Of a stretch of 8,848 bases of DNA, positions 2,992 through 8,754 are shown piece after piece. Every line of letters begins with the position of its first letter. The stretch's first letter is position 1. Origin of the DNA: an uncultured Oscillospiraceae bacterium (GTDB taxonomy: Bacteria > Bacillota > Clostridia > Oscillospirales > Acutalibacteraceae); assembly GCA_900546735.1 (NCBI GenBank), contig URDW01000090.1:1-8848 (forward strand), written 5' to 3'. The position numbers and the translations under genes are program-made. The notes below the pieces were generated by a model. The model was not told the origin of the DNA, searched no databases, and worked only from the letters and a program-made list of their open reading frames with translations.

Positions 2992-5130
2992 ATGGATATT
3001 ATTGCAAAGTTGGCCGAAGAATTTTCGGTCAGCCCCAAAAGAATTGAAAACACGATCGATCTGATCGACCAGGGCAACACGATCCCATTTATTGCGCGTT
3101 ATCGTAAAGAGATGACCGGCTCGCTCGACGACCAGGTGCTGCGCCAGATTTTTGAGCGTTTGAATTATCTGCGCAATCTGGACGCGCAGCGCGAAAAGAT
3201 TTTGGCCGCGATCGGGGAGCAGGGCAAGCTGACGCCGGAGCTGGAGGCAGCCGTGCAGGCGGCGGCAACGCTTACGGAACTGGAAGACCTTTACCGCCCG
3301 TACCGGCCAAAACGCAAAACGCGCGCGTCGGTCGCACGTGCAAAAGGGCTGCAGGGCCTGGCCGATCTGCTTTATGCCCAGGCGCCGGATGCAGACCCGT
3401 GCGCAGCCGCTGCCGGTTATCTGAATGACGAGGTGGCCACGGTAGAAGACGCGCTGGCCGGTGCGCAGGACATTGTGGCTGAGATGATCTCCGACGATCC
3501 GGCCGGGCGTAAACGCATCCGTTATTCCTGCAAAATGAACGGCAGCCTTGTCAGCGAAAAAGCGCAGGAGGATGCCGGCGTTTATGAAATGTATGCTTCT
3601 TACAGCGAGCCGGTCAGGAAAATTGCCGGCCACCGTGTGCTGGCAGTCAACCGCGGCGAAAAAGAGGGCTTTTTAAAAGCCGGCATTTCCTATGACCGGG
3701 AAAGCGGCCTGGCTATTTTGCGCCAGCTGCACCTGAAAGGCGGTCCCTGTGCAGCGTATATGGACGCTGCGATCGAAGATGCTTATACGCGCCTGATTTT
3801 TCCGAGTATCGAGCGTGAACTGCGCAGCGAGATGACCGAAAACGCCGATGAAAATGCCATCCGTGTGTTTGCCGACAACACGCGCCAGCTGCTGATGCAG
3901 CCGCCTGTTAAGGGCAAAGTCACGATCGGGCTTGATCCCGGTTACCGTACCGGCTGCAAGGTGGCAGTCGTGGATGCAAGCGGCGAAGTGCTCGACACTG
4001 CGGTCATTTACTGCGCACCGCCGCACAGCAAAATAGAACAGGCCAAGAAAATCATCAAAGACCTGGTGCATAAATACCATGTGCAGATGTTCGCCATCGG
4101 CAACGGCACGGCTTCGCACGAGACGGAGGTGTTTGCCGCAGAAGTGATCCGTGAGCTGGATCGCGGTATTGTGTATATGGTCGTCAGTGAGGCCGGTGCG
4201 TCTGTCTATTCCGCCTCCAAATTGGCGGCTGAGGAGTTCCCGCAGTACGACGTCAGCCTGCGTTCGGCCGTATCGATCGCGCGCCGCCTGCAGGATCCGC
4301 TGGCCGAGCTGGTAAAGATCGACCCGAAGGCGATCGGTGTTGGTCAGTACCAGCACGATATGCCGCAAAAGCAGTTGAACGAGGCGTTGGACGGTGTGGT
4401 GGAGGACTGCGTGAACTCTGTCGGCGTAGATCTGAATACCGCTTCTGTTCCGCTTTTGTCCCGTGTGGCCGGCATTTCGCAGAGCGTGGCCAAAAACATT
4501 GTGGCGTTTCGCCGCGAAAACGGCGGCTTTACCTCGCGTGCACAGCTGAAAAAGGTCAGCAAGCTCGGTCCGAAAGCTTTTGAACAGTGTGCCGGGTTTC
4601 TGCGTGTGCGAGAAAGCAAAAATGTGCTCGACAACACGGCCGTGCACCCGGAAAGCTACGCCGTGGCGGAAAAGCTGCTTGCGCTGTGCGGCGTCAGCGA
4701 GCAGGAAGTGCGTGCCGGAAAAACGGCGGCTGTCGGCCAGGTCGTAAAAACGATGGGCGCATCGGCCATTGCAAAGCGTCTGGATGTCGGCGAGCCGACG
4801 CTGAAAGACATTGTTTCGGAACTGCAAAAGCCCGGGCGCGACCCGCGCGACGAGCTGCCGCAGCCGATGCTGCGCACCGATATTTTAGGTATAGAAGATT
4901 TGAAGCCCGGCATGGAGCTGAAGGGCACCGTGCGCAATGTGGTGGACTTTGGCGCTTTTGTAGACATCGGCGTGCACCAGGACGGCCTTGTGCACATTTC
5001 ACAGATCACCAGCCGTTACATCCGCCACCCGTCTGACGTGCTGAAAGTCGGCGATATCGTTACGGTATGGGTGCTGCAGGTCGATGCTGCCAAAAAACGC
5101 ATCAGTCTTACGATGAAAAAGCCGCAGTAA
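2992..5130 (+). CDS. tex: Tex-family RNA-binding transcription accessory protein
   Basis: This 712-residue protein has the normal length for Tex, a conserved bacterial nucleic-acid-binding protein related to eukaryotic Spt6 and linked to transcription. Domains in order: a helical N-terminal region (about 1-190) starting DIIAKLAEEF; an RNase H-like YqgF fold opening with IGLDPGYRTGCK (312-323); tandem helix-hairpin-helix DNA-binding motifs (about 478-540), with VDLNTASVPLLSRVAGI and an Asn-Gly-Gly-Phe turn; and a C-terminal S1 RNA-binding domain (about 637-708) with GTVRNVVDFGAFVDIG and DGLVHIS. The frame is open upstream to 2851, but that part has no family similarity and spans the promoter, so I take ATG 2992, placed just after AGAAAGGGAAA and preceded by TTGCAC/TATAAT. 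It is transcribed divergently from the thioredoxin operon. No terminator is visible before the response regulator gene 70 bp downstream, so read-through is possible. Confidence 0.95.
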   Translation: MDIIAKLAEEFSVSPKRIENTIDLIDQGNTIPFIARYRKEMTGSLDDQVLRQIFERLNYLRNLDAQREKILAAIGEQGKLTPELEAAVQAAATLTELEDLYRPYRPKRKTRASVARAKGLQGLADLLYAQAPDADPCAAAAGYLNDEVATVEDALAGAQDIVAEMISDDPAGRKRIRYSCKMNGSLVSEKAQEDAGVYEMYASYSEPVRKIAGHRVLAVNRGEKEGFLKAGISYDRESGLAILRQLHLKGGPCAAYMDAAIEDAYTRLIFPSIERELRSEMTENADENAIRVFADNTRQLLMQPPVKGKVTIGLDPGYRTGCKVAVVDASGEVLDTAVIYCAPPHSKIEQAKKIIKDLVHKYHVQMFAIGNGTASHETEVFAAEVIRELDRGIVYMVVSEAGASVYSASKLAAEEFPQYDVSLRSAVSIARRLQDPLAELVKIDPKAIGVGQYQHDMPQKQLNEALDGVVEDCVNSVGVDLNTASVPLLSRVAGISQSVAKNIVAFRRENGGFTSRAQLKKVSKLGPKAFEQCAGFLRVRESKNVLDNTAVHPESYAVAEKLLALCGVSEQEVRAGKTAAVGQVVKTMGASAIAKRLDVGEPTLKDIVSELQKPGRDPRDELPQPMLRTDILGIEDLKPGMELKGTVRNVVDFGAFVDIGVHQDGLVHISQITSRYIRHPSDVLKVGDIVTVWVLQVDAAKKRISLTMKKPQ

Positions 5131-5133
5131 GGC

Positions 5134-5151
5134 TTTAATCTGTTTTTAATC
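5134..5151 (+). promoter_or_regulatory. Direct-repeat box upstream of the response regulator
   Basis: TTTAATC occurs at 5134-5140 and again at 5145-5151, exactly 11 bp apart with TGTT between. Tandem 7-bp half sites with 4-bp spacers are how OmpR/PhoB-family regulators bind. A weak -10 (AACAAT, 5161-5166) lies just downstream and the ORF begins 50 nt after the box. Nearly the same element is found at 7481-7498. Autoregulation of the two-component operon is inferred. Confidence 0.55.
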
Positions 5152-5200
5152 TTTTTATGCAACAATAAAACTGCAAATTTTGAATGGGCAGGTATGGAAA

Positions 5201-5875
5201 ATGAGAGTCTTGGTTGTTGAGGACGAAAAGGATTTAAGCGATGTGATCAAAATGGAGCTGGAGGACGAGGGCTACAGCTGCGACTGCTGCCTGGATGGCA
5301 ACGATGCGCTGCTTTACATGGAGTCGGCCGATTACGACGTTGTGCTGATGGATGTTATGCTGCCCGGGCAGAACGGGTTTGACATTGTGCGCAGCTACCG
5401 CAGCCGCGGCGGGCGTGCGCCGATCCTTTTTTTAACAGCGCGCGATGATGTGGAGGACCGTGTGCGCGGACTGGATCTTGGCGCCAGCGACTATATCATC
5501 AAACCGTTTTCGTTTCAAGAACTGCTTGCACGCATCCGCGCAGCCGTGCGCAGCCAGTCCGGCAGCACCGGCAATGTGTATACGGCGGCCGATCTGCAGC
5601 TGAACATCCAGACACACGAGGTCAGCCGCGCCGGCAAGGCGATTCGTCTGTCCGCCAAGGAGTTCGCTATTTTGGAGTGCCTGATGAAAAATAAAAACAC
5701 GGTGCTTACCCGTGAAGCCATTGAAAACAGCGTTTATGATTTTGACTATTCCGGCGGCACCAATGTGATCGACGTCTACATCCGCTATCTGCGCAAAAAG
5801 GTGGATGAAGGCTTTGACAAAAAGCTGATCCACACGGTGCGCGGCTATGGCTACGTTTTGAAGGAGGATGCATGA
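5201..5875 (+). CDS. OmpR/PhoB-family response regulator
   Basis: This 224-residue protein has the usual length of a receiver plus winged-helix regulator. The receiver (about 1-118) has the acidic pair E7/D8, phosphoacceptor D51 in LMDVMLPG, switch residue T79 in FLTARDD and K101 in IIKPFS. The C-terminal winged helix (about 128-222) shows the family pattern: LSAKEFAILECL, the recognition-helix region NVIDVYIRYLRKKVD, and the closing hairpin HTVRGYGYVL. All phosphorylation residues are intact. ATG 5201 is chosen because the residues from MRVLVVEDE are where receivers begin; the TTG seven codons upstream would add non-family residues. The ribosome binding site is weak (GGCAGG, about 8 nt upstream). 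The stop overlaps the kinase start (ATGA), so the two proteins are made as a pair. It probably binds the boxes at 5134-5151 and 7481-7498. The signal and wider regulon are unknown. Confidence 0.95.
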   Translation: MRVLVVEDEKDLSDVIKMELEDEGYSCDCCLDGNDALLYMESADYDVVLMDVMLPGQNGFDIVRSYRSRGGRAPILFLTARDDVEDRVRGLDLGASDYIIKPFSFQELLARIRAAVRSQSGSTGNVYTAADLQLNIQTHEVSRAGKAIRLSAKEFAILECLMKNKNTVLTREAIENSVYDFDYSGGTNVIDVYIRYLRKKVDEGFDKKLIHTVRGYGYVLKEDA

Positions 5876-7281
5876 AAAAGCTTTCCCTGCAGGCCAGGAT
5901 CACGCTATGGTTTTCAGTGCTTGTCATTCTCATCACGGCATTGGCATTCGGCCTGATGTTCGTTATTAATAATTCTGTCCTGCACACCAACATTCGTGAA
6001 TTGCTGCTCAGTACGGTGGAAACCAACGCACAGGAGATCGAGTTTTTGTTTTCCATGGCCGACGCGGAAGAGGATGAAGAGGACCAGTATTTGGAGTATC
6101 GCGGCGGTTATATTGAGATCGACGACGATTTTCTGGACGAGTTGAACGGCGTGTACACATCTCTTTATGATGCGCAGGGCAATCTGCTTTACGGCAACGG
6201 CGTTGTGAACTGCCCGGTCGATCTTTCGGGCAAAATCAGTGAAGTCAGCCGCGAAGGCGAGACGTATTATGTTTATTTTGAAGCGCTTGAAATTGAGCAT
6301 TTGGAGGGACTCGTGCTCAAAGGCGTTGTCAATGAAAACGCCAACCAGACTATTTTGTCGCAGACAGTGCGTCTTTCGCTGATGCTTTTGCCGCTGTTTG
6401 CGCTTGTGGCCATCCTCGGCGGATACCTGATGGCGCGGCGTTCGCTGCGGCCCATTCAAAAAATCGCCGCGGCAGCCGAACAGATCAGCGACGGCCGCGA
6501 TTTGTCCAAACGCATTGAAATGCCGCCGCAGCAGGACGAGCTGGCGCAGCTTGCGGGCACATTCAACTCTATGTTTGACCGTTTGGAACGCTCCTTTGAG
6601 GCGGAAAAGCAATTTACATCCGACGCTTCGCATGAGCTGCGCACGCCGCTTTCGGTCATCTCGGCACAGTGTGAATTTGCCCTGAAAAAAGACCGCGATG
6701 CGCAGGCTTATAAAAACAGTTTACAGGTGATCTCACGCCAGGCGGCGCGCATGAGCGCCATTGTGGAAGAAATGCTTTCCTATGCCCGGCTGGAGCGTAT
6801 GGATGCGCCGCCCGATCTGCACACGGCTGACGTTTCGCAGCTGACGCAGCAGGTCTGCAACGATTTTGCCGGTACGCTGCAAAATGGCATCCGCCTGTCG
6901 ACTGAGATCGAGAGCGCAATCTCTTTGCCGGTCAGTTCCAGCCTTTTTGAACAGATGCTCGTCAATCTGCTTTCAAACGCTTACCGCTACAACCGGCCAG
7001 ACGGCACGATCACGGTGGGTCTGCATCGTGCAGACACGCAGGCGGTACTCAGCGTGGCGGACACGGGCGCCGGCATGACGCCCGAGCAGACCGAGCGCAT
7101 TTGGCAAAAGTTTTACCGCGCCGATGCTTCGCGCACGTCGCAGGACCAGAAGAACGGCCTCGGCATAGGCTTGGCTGTTGTCAAGCGCATTGCCGATCTG
7201 CACGGCTTTTCCTTAAAGGTGGAAAGCCGCGAAAACGAGGGCAGCATGTTTTATGTTTATATGCCGTTGCCCGGCGCATAA
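5872..7281 (+). CDS. Membrane sensor histidine kinase, partner of the upstream regulator
   Basis: This 469-residue protein is a complete HAMP-type kinase. Membrane segment 1 is at about residues 11-33 and segment 2 at about 168-187. Between them lies an extracytoplasmic sensor domain of about 130 residues, very acidic near its start (ADAEEDEED, 63-71, and EIDDDFLDE, 82-90). HAMP follows (about 188-240), then the phosphoacceptor H254 in SDASHELRTPL, the N box with N365 and N369 (NLLSNAYRYN), G1 DTGAGM (397-402), F box WQKFYRAD (411-418) and G2 GLGIGLAVV (429-437). All catalytic motifs look intact. The start overlaps the regulator stop (ATGA) and follows a strong AAGGAGG. A terminator lies about 50 bp downstream. 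The acidic loop might sense metal cations or cationic peptides, as in PhoQ-like sensors, but that is inference from charge alone. Confidence 0.95.
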   Translation: MKKLSLQARITLWFSVLVILITALAFGLMFVINNSVLHTNIRELLLSTVETNAQEIEFLFSMADAEEDEEDQYLEYRGGYIEIDDDFLDELNGVYTSLYDAQGNLLYGNGVVNCPVDLSGKISEVSREGETYYVYFEALEIEHLEGLVLKGVVNENANQTILSQTVRLSLMLLPLFALVAILGGYLMARRSLRPIQKIAAAAEQISDGRDLSKRIEMPPQQDELAQLAGTFNSMFDRLERSFEAEKQFTSDASHELRTPLSVISAQCEFALKKDRDAQAYKNSLQVISRQAARMSAIVEEMLSYARLERMDAPPDLHTADVSQLTQQVCNDFAGTLQNGIRLSTEIESAISLPVSSSLFEQMLVNLLSNAYRYNRPDGTITVGLHRADTQAVLSVADTGAGMTPEQTERIWQKFYRADASRTSQDQKNGLGIGLAVVKRIADLHGFSLKVESRENEGSMFYVYMPLPGA

Positions 7282-7330
7282 AACGGTTGAACGATTTATG
7301 GCTGATCCATTGAAAATCAAAATAAATGCT

Positions 7331-7362
7331 AAAAATGCCGGAAAGACACCTCCGGCATTTTT
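7331..7362 (+). terminator. Rho-independent terminator after the kinase
   Basis: AAAAATGCCGGA (7331-7342) pairs perfectly with TCCGGCATTTTT (7351-7362) across an 8-nt loop. The stem ends in a run of five T. It closes the regulator-kinase unit and implies that the PepSY gene has its own promoter. Confidence 0.88.
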
Positions 7363-7480
7363 AATGGGAAATTATAAAATGGGTTATTAATGATTGAGCA
7401 TTTCTTTAACAGCTGGTTTCAATGTGGCGTATTTGGCCGGTAAAAATCAGCATAAAAAAATTTTTCAGAAATTTCTTTTT
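7363..7480. other. AT-rich gene-free stretch before the PepSY regulatory region
   Basis: No supported gene is present; the longest ATG frame is 17 codons (from 7390) with no good ribosome binding site. The last 30 bases hold phased A and T tracts (AAAAAAATTTTT at 7454-7465, then AAATTTCTTTTTT) directly before the direct-repeat box. These could bend DNA or act as an UP-like element; that is inference. Confidence 0.35.
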
Positions 7481-7498
7481 TCTAATCTGGTTTTAATT
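7481..7498 (+). promoter_or_regulatory. Direct-repeat box upstream of the PepSY gene
   Basis: TCTAATC (7481-7487) and TTTAATT (7492-7498) are again exactly 11 bp apart, with TGGT between. Over 18 positions it differs from the box at 5134-5151 at only three. A weak -10 (TATTCT, 7508-7513) sits at the same offset from the second half site as AACAAT does at the other locus. This suggests direct control of the PepSY gene by the response regulator. Confidence 0.55.
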
Positions 7499-7512
7499 TT
7501 CATATCGTATTC

Positions 7513-7546
7513 TTGTGTCAGACGGAGGGAACAACGTCTGACACAA
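7513..7546 (+). promoter_or_regulatory. Perfect 12-bp stem-loop in the PepSY leader
   Basis: TTGTGTCAGACG (7513-7524) pairs perfectly with CGTCTGACACAA (7535-7546) around the loop GAGGGAACAA. An ATTTTTATAT stretch follows, then the real ribosome binding site GGAGG (7557-7561). It may be an mRNA-stabilising 5' hairpin, a leader terminator/attenuator or a DNA operator. The loop itself looks like a Shine-Dalgarno sequence but has no start codon at a usable distance. The structure is certain; the role is open. Confidence 0.6.
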
Positions 7547-7569: not shown

Positions 7570-8754
7570 ATGAAAAAACTTACAGGTGAAACGATCCGCA
7601 GCTTACCAAAAAAGAAAAAAATGCTCATTTCGGGCGTGGCTGTTGTGGCCGGTGTGGCCGTTCTCGGTGCAGGTGTTGCCGCTTATGCGTCGAACGCCGT
7701 GCAGAAAAATGTGATCGGGTCTGACGCAGCCGTTTCCATTGCACTGGACGACGCCAACGTCTCGGCGCAGGCAGCACGCATCGACGATGTGGACCTGGAC
7801 TTGAGACAAGGCACGCTGGTCTACGATGTGGAGTTTGAGGCCGACCGTGTGGATTACGATTACGAGATCAAAGCTTCTGACGGTACCATTTTGAACCGTT
7901 TGGCCGAGGCGGACGGTGAGAAAGTCAGCACTACGGCTGCGCAGTCGGCTGAAACGACAACGGCCGCTGCAGGCGGCAGCCAAGCGACCGGTGACTCTGC
8001 TTCGCAGACGACTGCCGCGCAGAACAGCGCAGGTGTTACACTGGATTCGGCAAAGTCGATCGCACTGAAACACGCCGGGCTGTCTGCTTCGGATGTGCGC
8101 TTCACAAAAGCCAAAACGGATTACGACGACGGTGTAAAAGAGTACGATATCGAGTTCATTTCCGGCAGCTATGAGTATGAGTTTGAAGTGCGTGCTTCCG
8201 ACGGCAAGATCACGTCTTACGACCGTGAGCGCGCCGATGCGCAAAAGACCACCTCTTCCCAGAAAACCACTTCTTCTCAGAGCAGCAGTTCTGCCGTAAC
8301 TTTGGCCGAGGCAAAGTCCATCGCACTGAAGCATGCCGGCCTGTCCGCTTCGGACGTGCGTTTTACAAAAGCCAAAACGGATTATGACGACGGCGTAAAA
8401 GAGTACGACATCGAGTTCGTTTCCGGCAGCTACGAGTATGAATTTGAAGTGCGCGCTTCTGACGGCAAAATCACTTCTTATGACCGTGAACGTGCCGAGG
8501 GGCAGAAAACCACCTCAGCGTCCACAACTTCTTCCGGCAACTATATCGGCACGGAAAAAGCCAAGTCGATCGCTTTGAAGGACAGCGGCGTTTCCGCATC
8601 GAAAGCTACATTTGAAAAGGCAAAGCTGGACAAAGAGGACGGCGTCTATGTGTACGAAGTGGAATTCCGCAGCGGCAACATGGAATATGAGTACGAGATC
8701 AACGCCAAGACCGGCAAGATCCTGGACCGCTCGGTCGAACGCGAAGACCGCTGA
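7570..8754 (+). CDS. Membrane-anchored or secreted protein with four PepSY-type repeats
   Basis: This 394-residue protein starts at ATG 7570, 8 nt after GGAGG. A basic N-terminus (PKKKK, 13-17) is followed by one hydrophobic segment (about 18-40); A-Y-A at 38-40 could be a signal-peptidase site, so it is either anchored or released. Outside are four PepSY-type units at about 51-112, 156-222, 243-309 and 326-391. Each follows the pattern AKSIALK-xxG at the front, then YDIEF, YEYEFEVRASDGKI-like strands at the end. Ser/Thr/Gln/Ala-rich linkers (113-155, 223-242, 310-325) join them. Units 2 and 3 are almost identical; units 1 and 4 are diverged. The domains are rich in Asp, Glu and Tyr. PepSY domains are known as propeptide or inhibitor-like extracellular modules and often lie beside two-component systems, but the function here is unknown. 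The gene has its own promoter region with the same direct-repeat box as the upstream regulator. Confidence 0.85.
   Translation: MKKLTGETIRSLPKKKKMLISGVAVVAGVAVLGAGVAAYASNAVQKNVIGSDAAVSIALDDANVSAQAARIDDVDLDLRQGTLVYDVEFEADRVDYDYEIKASDGTILNRLAEADGEKVSTTAAQSAETTTAAAGGSQATGDSASQTTAAQNSAGVTLDSAKSIALKHAGLSASDVRFTKAKTDYDDGVKEYDIEFISGSYEYEFEVRASDGKITSYDRERADAQKTTSSQKTTSSQSSSSAVTLAEAKSIALKHAGLSASDVRFTKAKTDYDDGVKEYDIEFVSGSYEYEFEVRASDGKITSYDRERAEGQKTTSASTTSSGNYIGTEKAKSIALKDSGVSASKATFEKAKLDKEDGVYVYEVEFRSGNMEYEYEINAKTGKILDRSVEREDR

Follow-up and report, generated by a model that had tools for sequence, protein, structure and literature searches.

Four described two-component systems, each taken here from excerpts of one report, offer the closest parallels to the locus described below. 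In streptococci, promoters of the CiaRH system carry an 11-bp direct repeat whose hexamers are five bases (N5) apart, followed after ten bases (N10) by TATAAT, with a C immediately ahead of the transcription start (PMC3091779). The PmrA/BasR box is likewise built of head-to-tail half-sites five bases apart, with CTTAAT as the half-site preferred by PmrA (PMC3973317). The SaeRS system of Staphylococcus aureus uses GTTAA-N6-GTTAA, again with an 11-bp period, and drives its own operon, which includes the exported accessory protein SaeP acting on the kinase (PMC5083920). Finally, BqsRS of Pseudomonas aeruginosa, which responds to ferrous iron, is an activator associated with TTAAG-N6-TTAAG at the same period (PMC4682146). 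Here we consider a stretch of 8,848 nucleotides from an uncultured Oscillospiraceae bacterium (contig URDW01000090.1, hereafter "the window"), in which two tandem repeats of this kind precede, respectively, an operon for an OmpR-family response regulator and its sensor histidine kinase, and a gene for a predicted exported protein with PepSY repeats. We consider it highly probable that both repeats represent a single conserved promoter-like element, and that the regulator encoded at 5201 binds it and thereby activates the PepSY gene and, probably with less strength, its own operon.

The two repeats, TTTAATCTGTTTTTAATC at 5134-5151 and TCTAATCTGGTTTTAATT at 7481-7498, are identical at 15 of 18 positions and have the spacer bases CTG in common. 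When both strands of the window were scanned with TTTAATC-N4-TTTAATC, they ranked first (0 mismatches) and second (2 mismatches), the next site having 3. The best 18-mer common to both upstream regions scored 16, a value reached by none of 300 dinucleotide shuffles (nine reached 15) and, when an 11-bp self-repeat was also demanded, by one of 2000 (five reached at least 15). In both copies a -10-like hexamer lies at the same offset, ten bases past the second TTTAAT, while a sigma-70-type -35/-10 pair, sought at both sites, was found at neither. A preliminary description of this DNA had pointed to the two repeats and their shared 11-bp phasing, to weak -10-like hexamers at equal offset and to a terminator separating the two units, all of which are borne out here (Table 1). 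Both the tandem direct repeat at one helical turn (11-bp period, N10 to the -10) and the domains of the regulator, a Pfam receiver (96.2 bits) and a winged-helix Trans_reg_C domain (89.9 bits), each above its cut-off, are those of the OmpR/PhoB family.

Conservation at orthologous loci had been proposed as the check on this pair of repeats. A kinase search, followed by an 18-row alignment and a scan with one genome per species, provided the best 80 of 590 loci (numbered L below, with Clostridia genomes numbered G). At fifteen of the 80, no PepSY gene lay within 4 kb, and six lacked a testable regulator upstream region, leaving 65 PepSY loci and 74 regulators to be compared with 713 other genes from the same contigs. 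TTTAAT-N5-TTTAAT with at least 10 of 12 matches was present at 57/65 PepSY loci, 22/74 regulators and 37/713 other genes. For the composite element, i.e. TYTAAT-N5-TTTAAT-N10-(-10) with no -35, a TANNNT hexamer was required at exactly N10; it was counted at 59/65, 25/74 and 17/713 with a half-site cut of 9/12, and at 53/65, 20/74 and 7/713 with a cut of 10/12, in PepSY and regulator windows that were 27 bases longer downstream than those of the controls and with two chances for loci with two frames. In equal windows the element precedes the PepSY gene at 55/65 loci (58/81 frames), the regulator at 24/74 and other genes at 17/713, or, at the 10/12 cut, 50/65 loci (51/81 frames), 19/74 and 7/713, and five of these seven control genes are VTC, metallo-hydrolase or exported-protein genes at loci without PepSY. 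Spacing to the -10 is exactly N10 at 53/58 PepSY sites and 19/22 regulator sites; each of the other spacings between 3 and 20 accounts for three sites at most. The PepSY loci that fail the 59/65 count (L017, L024, L026, L060, L069 and L076) include two with CATAAT at N10 behind half-sites of 11/12 and 12/12 (L024 and L026, respectively) and one, L069, whose exact site was missed through the choice of start codon; counts were left as computed. The element occurs in 16 of the 18 single-linkage clusters (50% kinase identity) having a PepSY gene, extends beyond Clostridia, e.g. to Alkalibacterium (L080) and Leptotrichiaceae (L075), and emerged, whole (TnTAATnTTnnTTTAATnTTnnnnnnnTATnnT) or as a shifted portion, from all 12 starts of a Gibbs sampler run without prior on the 65 upstream regions.

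This conservation is linked to the kinase–regulator pair. Among PepSY genes collected independently of the kinase, through the Pfam family in 118 Clostridia genomes (30 loci fetched, yielding 27 frames, three loci giving none and five frames having fewer than 300 bases upstream), the element was found in 3/27, of which two lie next to a related kinase (L144 and L147) and one is weak (L165). Its rarity there ties the element to the kinase–regulator system and not to PepSY genes as such. Across 12 genomes picked for having the locus, a strict pattern gave 11 matches vs 3 for the reversed pattern; nine of these stand upstream of a PepSY gene (six), the regulator (two) or, in one case, the gene of an acidic exported protein adjoining the system. 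A somewhat different strict pattern gave 26 matches in 24 of 391 Clostridia-class genomes vs 9 for its reversed control; genes assigned downstream are three for PepSY proteins, two for regulators, four for other exported proteins next to the system and five with a VTC domain (one a short fragment). Exact copies are thus rare, and the many random copies that the preliminary description had named as a danger to its proposal were not encountered in these relatives. A large regulon in relatives was rejected on the same strict scans, which show few sites. Kinase orthologues were called in 22 of the 391 genomes (E <=1e-60, at most four candidates scored per genome, such that kinases may be missed), 13 of which also have the pattern (Fisher p 1.5e-12). 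Excluding the centre genome G005 gives p 1.4e-11, and counting 12 genomes, the place of the match in G022 being probably noise, gives p 5.8e-11. None of the nine control-pattern genomes has the kinase, and among the nine kinase genomes with no strict match, a relaxed element occurs in the fetched stretch of five. It is hardly credible that the repeats merely reflect AT-rich promoter context or chance, with no specific regulator. Both do lie in intergenic DNA of 67-70% AT, and relaxed matches are no commoner than their control; however, genes on the same contigs carry the element far less often than PepSY loci (17/713 vs 55/65), the N10 spacing is exact, the motif emerged without prior and the association with the kinase holds at genome level. 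Chance and AT-richness were rejected on the control genes and the fixed spacing.

The two sites of a locus also resemble each other. In 19 pairs (the window and 18 loci that have both elements), the half-sites on the regulator and PepSY sides agree at 197/228 positions vs 183.1 (standard deviation 3.2) when partners are shuffled, with p=0.0002 in a statistic that ignores kinship. Agreement within loci is slight for the five-base spacer (p=0.045), and does not exceed shuffling for the N10 stretch (62 vs 62.3 expected) or the flanks. At PepSY sites, base 2 of the first half-site is C in 18 and T in 6 cases when the recognition helix of the regulator has Ser, and C in 7 and T in 15 when it has Arg; since ten of 33 columns differ at p<0.05, clade explains this pattern equally well. 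From this set of observations we infer that the window regulator is the protein that binds the element.

VTC genes, of the polyphosphate-polymerase type, provide a second set of candidate targets. In seven genomes (L054, L070, G022, G336, G163, G372 and G021), VTC and DUF4956 genes precede the regulator, a TTTAAT element stands before VTC, and the kinase follows the regulator where the contig continues; in 5/7 these two genes are followed by a third, which at least partly matches the L070 gene of CotH type. G216 has its VTC operon and its regulator on separate contigs with the element before both, and in G355 a PepSY gene with the element is on a different contig from the regulator. Together with a general sample of 30 VTC loci, these genomes show that TTTAAT-type VTC promoters occur with an orthologue of the regulator (8/8 genomes, 55-59% identity; 6/6 independent of the kinase, as L054 and L070 were fetched by it), while no close orthologue was detected in the other VTC genomes searched for it (0/24, best match <=43%). 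The 24 comprise 11 Clostridia genomes (L168-L174, L177, L179, L181 and L187) with a TTTAAG or mixed TTTAAT/TTTAAG version of the promoter, for which a different CiaR-like regulator may be the reader, and 13 lacking a clear element (G083 having a weak match). VTC as a general target was rejected: G005, G025, G062 and G109 have both the kinase and a VTC gene, with the element before VTC in 0/4. VTC is thus an output for only some members of the family, chiefly those in which it adjoins the system. At L054, a metallo-hydrolase gene with a lipoprotein-like start (4814) and then VTC (5729) each have their own 12/12 element upstream of the regulator operon, and at L225 (genome G063) a TAA lies in frame within the match to the regulator.

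These data bear on whether a real activator site could be bound by another OmpR-family regulator of the same class, such as a CiaR- or PmrA-like paralogue. PmrA and CiaR share this half-site class, and the 11 genomes with TTTAAG or mixed promoters before VTC show related sites where a close orthologue is lacking. Against this, TTTAAT-type VTC promoters track the orthologue in 8/8 vs 0/24 genomes (two of the eight being kinase-chosen) and half-sites covary within loci, and we regard a paralogue as an improbable reader.

If the window regulator is the reader, a simple mechanism can be proposed. In the PhoB and CiaR systems the regulator substitutes for the -35 contact. Here, the phosphorylated OmpR-family regulator would bind the repeat as a tandem dimer and, once bound, would replace the -35 contact at the N10-spaced -10, activating the PepSY gene and also, though probably less strongly, its own operon. 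The window PepSY protein is predicted to be exported, based on a hydrophobic N-terminal segment, and has a net charge of -22 across the 353 residues after this signal segment; among PepSY proteins behind the element, 58/62 have such a segment and 60/62 are negative (mean -0.125 charges/residue). The extracytoplasmic domain of the kinase (residues 34-160) is itself acidic, with a net charge of -23. A structural model of the kinase has a mean predicted local distance difference test score (pLDDT) of 70.6, and ~80 over most of the ectodomain; among the PDB matches listed, most concern the general kinase core and nothing speaks to the signal, the first being a WalK-YycH model (root-mean-square deviation 49). 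By analogy with SaeP, the acidic PepSY protein may act extracellularly, either on the acidic kinase sensor or on cations or cationic peptides sensed by the kinase, and in this way close a feedback loop. PmrAB is linked to cationic stress, and together with BqsRS and the charges of these proteins this suggests, by analogy, a similar link here. A broader proposal is that of a widespread regulatory family, found in Clostridia as well as some other phyla, whose single promoter code, TYTAAT-N5-TTTAAT-N10-(-10), drives a nearly single-target output that is a cell-surface polyanion, in most genomes an acidic exported PepSY array and elsewhere the product of a VTC operon adjoining the system, with the kinase reading cationic stress and the output neutralising it and resetting the sensor. 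This seems doubtful to us, and the four kinase genomes without the element before their VTC gene make it less probable.

Several observations weigh against the reading in which the window regulator binds both repeats. With one mismatch allowed, the 12 genomes gave 72 matches vs 73 for the reversed control, i.e. no excess, in a scan that is uninformative on regulon size. Twelve of the 26 exact matches in the 391 genomes have no assigned downstream class, a number close to the control count of 9, and 4/9 kinase genomes without an exact match show no element in the fetched stretch. The permutation test of half-site covariation treats the loci as unrelated by ancestry, the relation between recognition-helix residue and half-site base is confounded by clade, and the feedback role of the PepSY protein is proposed by analogy. 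The remaining points concern the regulator side: L001 and L015, the closest relatives by regulator score, have the element before PepSY and not before the regulator; only about one third of relatives have it there (50/74 lack the composite element); the AACAAT of the window copy is a poor -10 that violates the TANNNT rule applied in the counts; and the first repeat begins inside a weak hairpin of 6 pairs that resembles a terminator (5118-5136). The last three of these features would be expected if only the PepSY copy were a site of the regulator and the regulator-side copy a leftover of AT-rich DNA or the T-rich tail of a tex terminator, with no autoregulation. We consider this somewhat unlikely, as the window copy has 12/12 half-site matches with N10 spacing and shares the CTG spacer with the PepSY copy, and the stricter cut still separates regulators of relatives (19/74) from controls (7/713). 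Of the earlier claim that the regulator activates both units, the PepSY half is well supported by conservation (55/65 loci), while autoregulation, with 24/74 relatives and a poor -10, is the weaker half, and binding in both cases is inferred. The PepSY gene likewise stands as the predicted output in most relatives, but is replaced by a VTC operon in some.

Table 1. Features of the window relevant to the two repeats and their flanking genes.
Feature	Position	Strand	Remarks
tex	2992-5130	+	gene preceding the response-regulator operon
tandem element TTTAAT-CTGTT-TTTAAT	5134-5150	+	upstream of response regulator; half-sites 12/12; likely (predicted) regulator site for its own operon
-10-like hexamer AACAAT	5161-5166	+	N10 after second half-site; weak, without TA start
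OmpR-family response regulator	5201-5875	+	Pfam Response_reg and Trans_reg_C; recognition helix NVIDVYIRYLRKKV
sensor histidine kinase	5872-7281	+	Pfam HAMP, HisKA, HATPase_c; acidic extracytoplasmic domain
terminator-like inverted repeat, near-symmetrical, 16-pair stem	7329-7364	.	between kinase operon and PepSY gene
tandem element TCTAAT-CTGGT-TTTAAT	7481-7497	+	upstream of PepSY gene; likely (predicted) regulator site
-10 hexamer TATTCT	7508-7513	+	N10 after second half-site
CA dinucleotide of family logo (columns 39-40)	7519-7520	+	6-7 bases 3' of -10; predicted transcription start
exported acidic protein (predicted), tandem PepSY repeats	7570-8754	+	Pfam PepSY 98.2 bits; hydrophobic N-terminus; negative charge

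Membership of the PepSY family is clear for the product of the last gene (PF03413, 98.2 vs a cut-off of 24 bits, two stretches passing alone). Its second and third repeats (8041-8520) have almost the same protein sequence, pointing to a recent duplication within the gene. The leader of this gene contains an 11-bp perfect inverted repeat, TGTGTCAGACG/CGTCTGACACA (7514-7545, fold z -6.57), possibly a 5' stabiliser or a second operator; L001 has a strong, unrelated hairpin near the same place, and many other relatives have none. At L005, three copies of one 20-base tandem repeat, each with TATAAT at N10, stand in line before the PepSY gene (0-based starts 11425, 11678 and 11775). The terminator-like repeat between the units was listed on the - strand only, presumably because the T run of the + strand sits within the stem. 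The nearest kinases to that of the window, known as proteins only, are 99% and 83% identical to it. The kinase scores below the cut-off of NCBIfam TIGR01386 (236 vs 292.55 bits), and the regulator below the curated cut-off of all NCBIfam families listed (25 of 99), including TIGR01387 for the CztR/SilR/CopR heavy-metal regulators (244 vs 279.2 bits) and the PmrA equivalog (202.3 vs 330 bits), which sets it outside PmrA/BasR. An Rfam search of the window at gathering scores gave zero matches. Elsewhere in the window, the region 471-710 holds a small protein with a partial match to a Cro/C1-type helix-turn-helix domain (24.9 bits, cut-off 22), after which a strong hairpin and T run can be read from the sequence (~677-710).

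Literature searches found no study on these Clostridia kinase–regulator pairs and no paper containing TTTAATNNNNNTTTAAT; PepSY with CiaR retrieved unrelated papers only, VTC polyphosphate with PepSY none, and a TTTAAT direct repeat with a two-component response regulator a SaeRS paper and a PhoP paper. The element provides a predicted binding code and target list, and a direct test, for a large Clostridia group of kinase–regulator pairs, and connects exported PepSY proteins with a signalling circuit whose code is also linked to VTC operons in some genomes. As each genome has so few exact sites, a single reporter could serve to follow the sensor's output.

The preliminary description had presented the repeat as a new binding motif. 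It is conserved and emerges without prior, but is not isolated among described operators. The nearest parallel is CiaR, with which the window-type element shares the 11-bp repeat, the N5 and N10 spacings (the latter at 53/58 PepSY sites) and the C before the start. The two differ in the half-site, which in CiaR is TTTAAG with an invariant G; the element has T at this position in a fraction of 0.96-1.00 of sites, which were chosen by TTTAAT score and are thus T-biased, and in all four half-sites of the window. The recognition helices are VVEVYVSKVRKKL in CiaR and NVIDVYIRYLRKKV in the window regulator, and CiaR of S. pneumoniae has 15 promoters, some for small RNAs, compared to few sites per genome here (PMC3091779, excerpts). 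PmrA matches in half-site class and five-base gap, and differs in its targets, polymyxin-resistance genes such as pbgP (PMC3973317, excerpts). SaeRS is similar in combining an 11-bp repeat with an exported accessory protein, although here the accessory gene is separate, downstream, and encodes an acidic PepSY protein. For BqsRS, 432 operators with at most two mutations are described (PMC4682146, excerpts), as opposed to a handful of exact sites per genome here. Overall, the promoter follows the CiaR architecture with half-sites of the PmrA class, and what is new in this system is its dedicated PepSY (or VTC) output.

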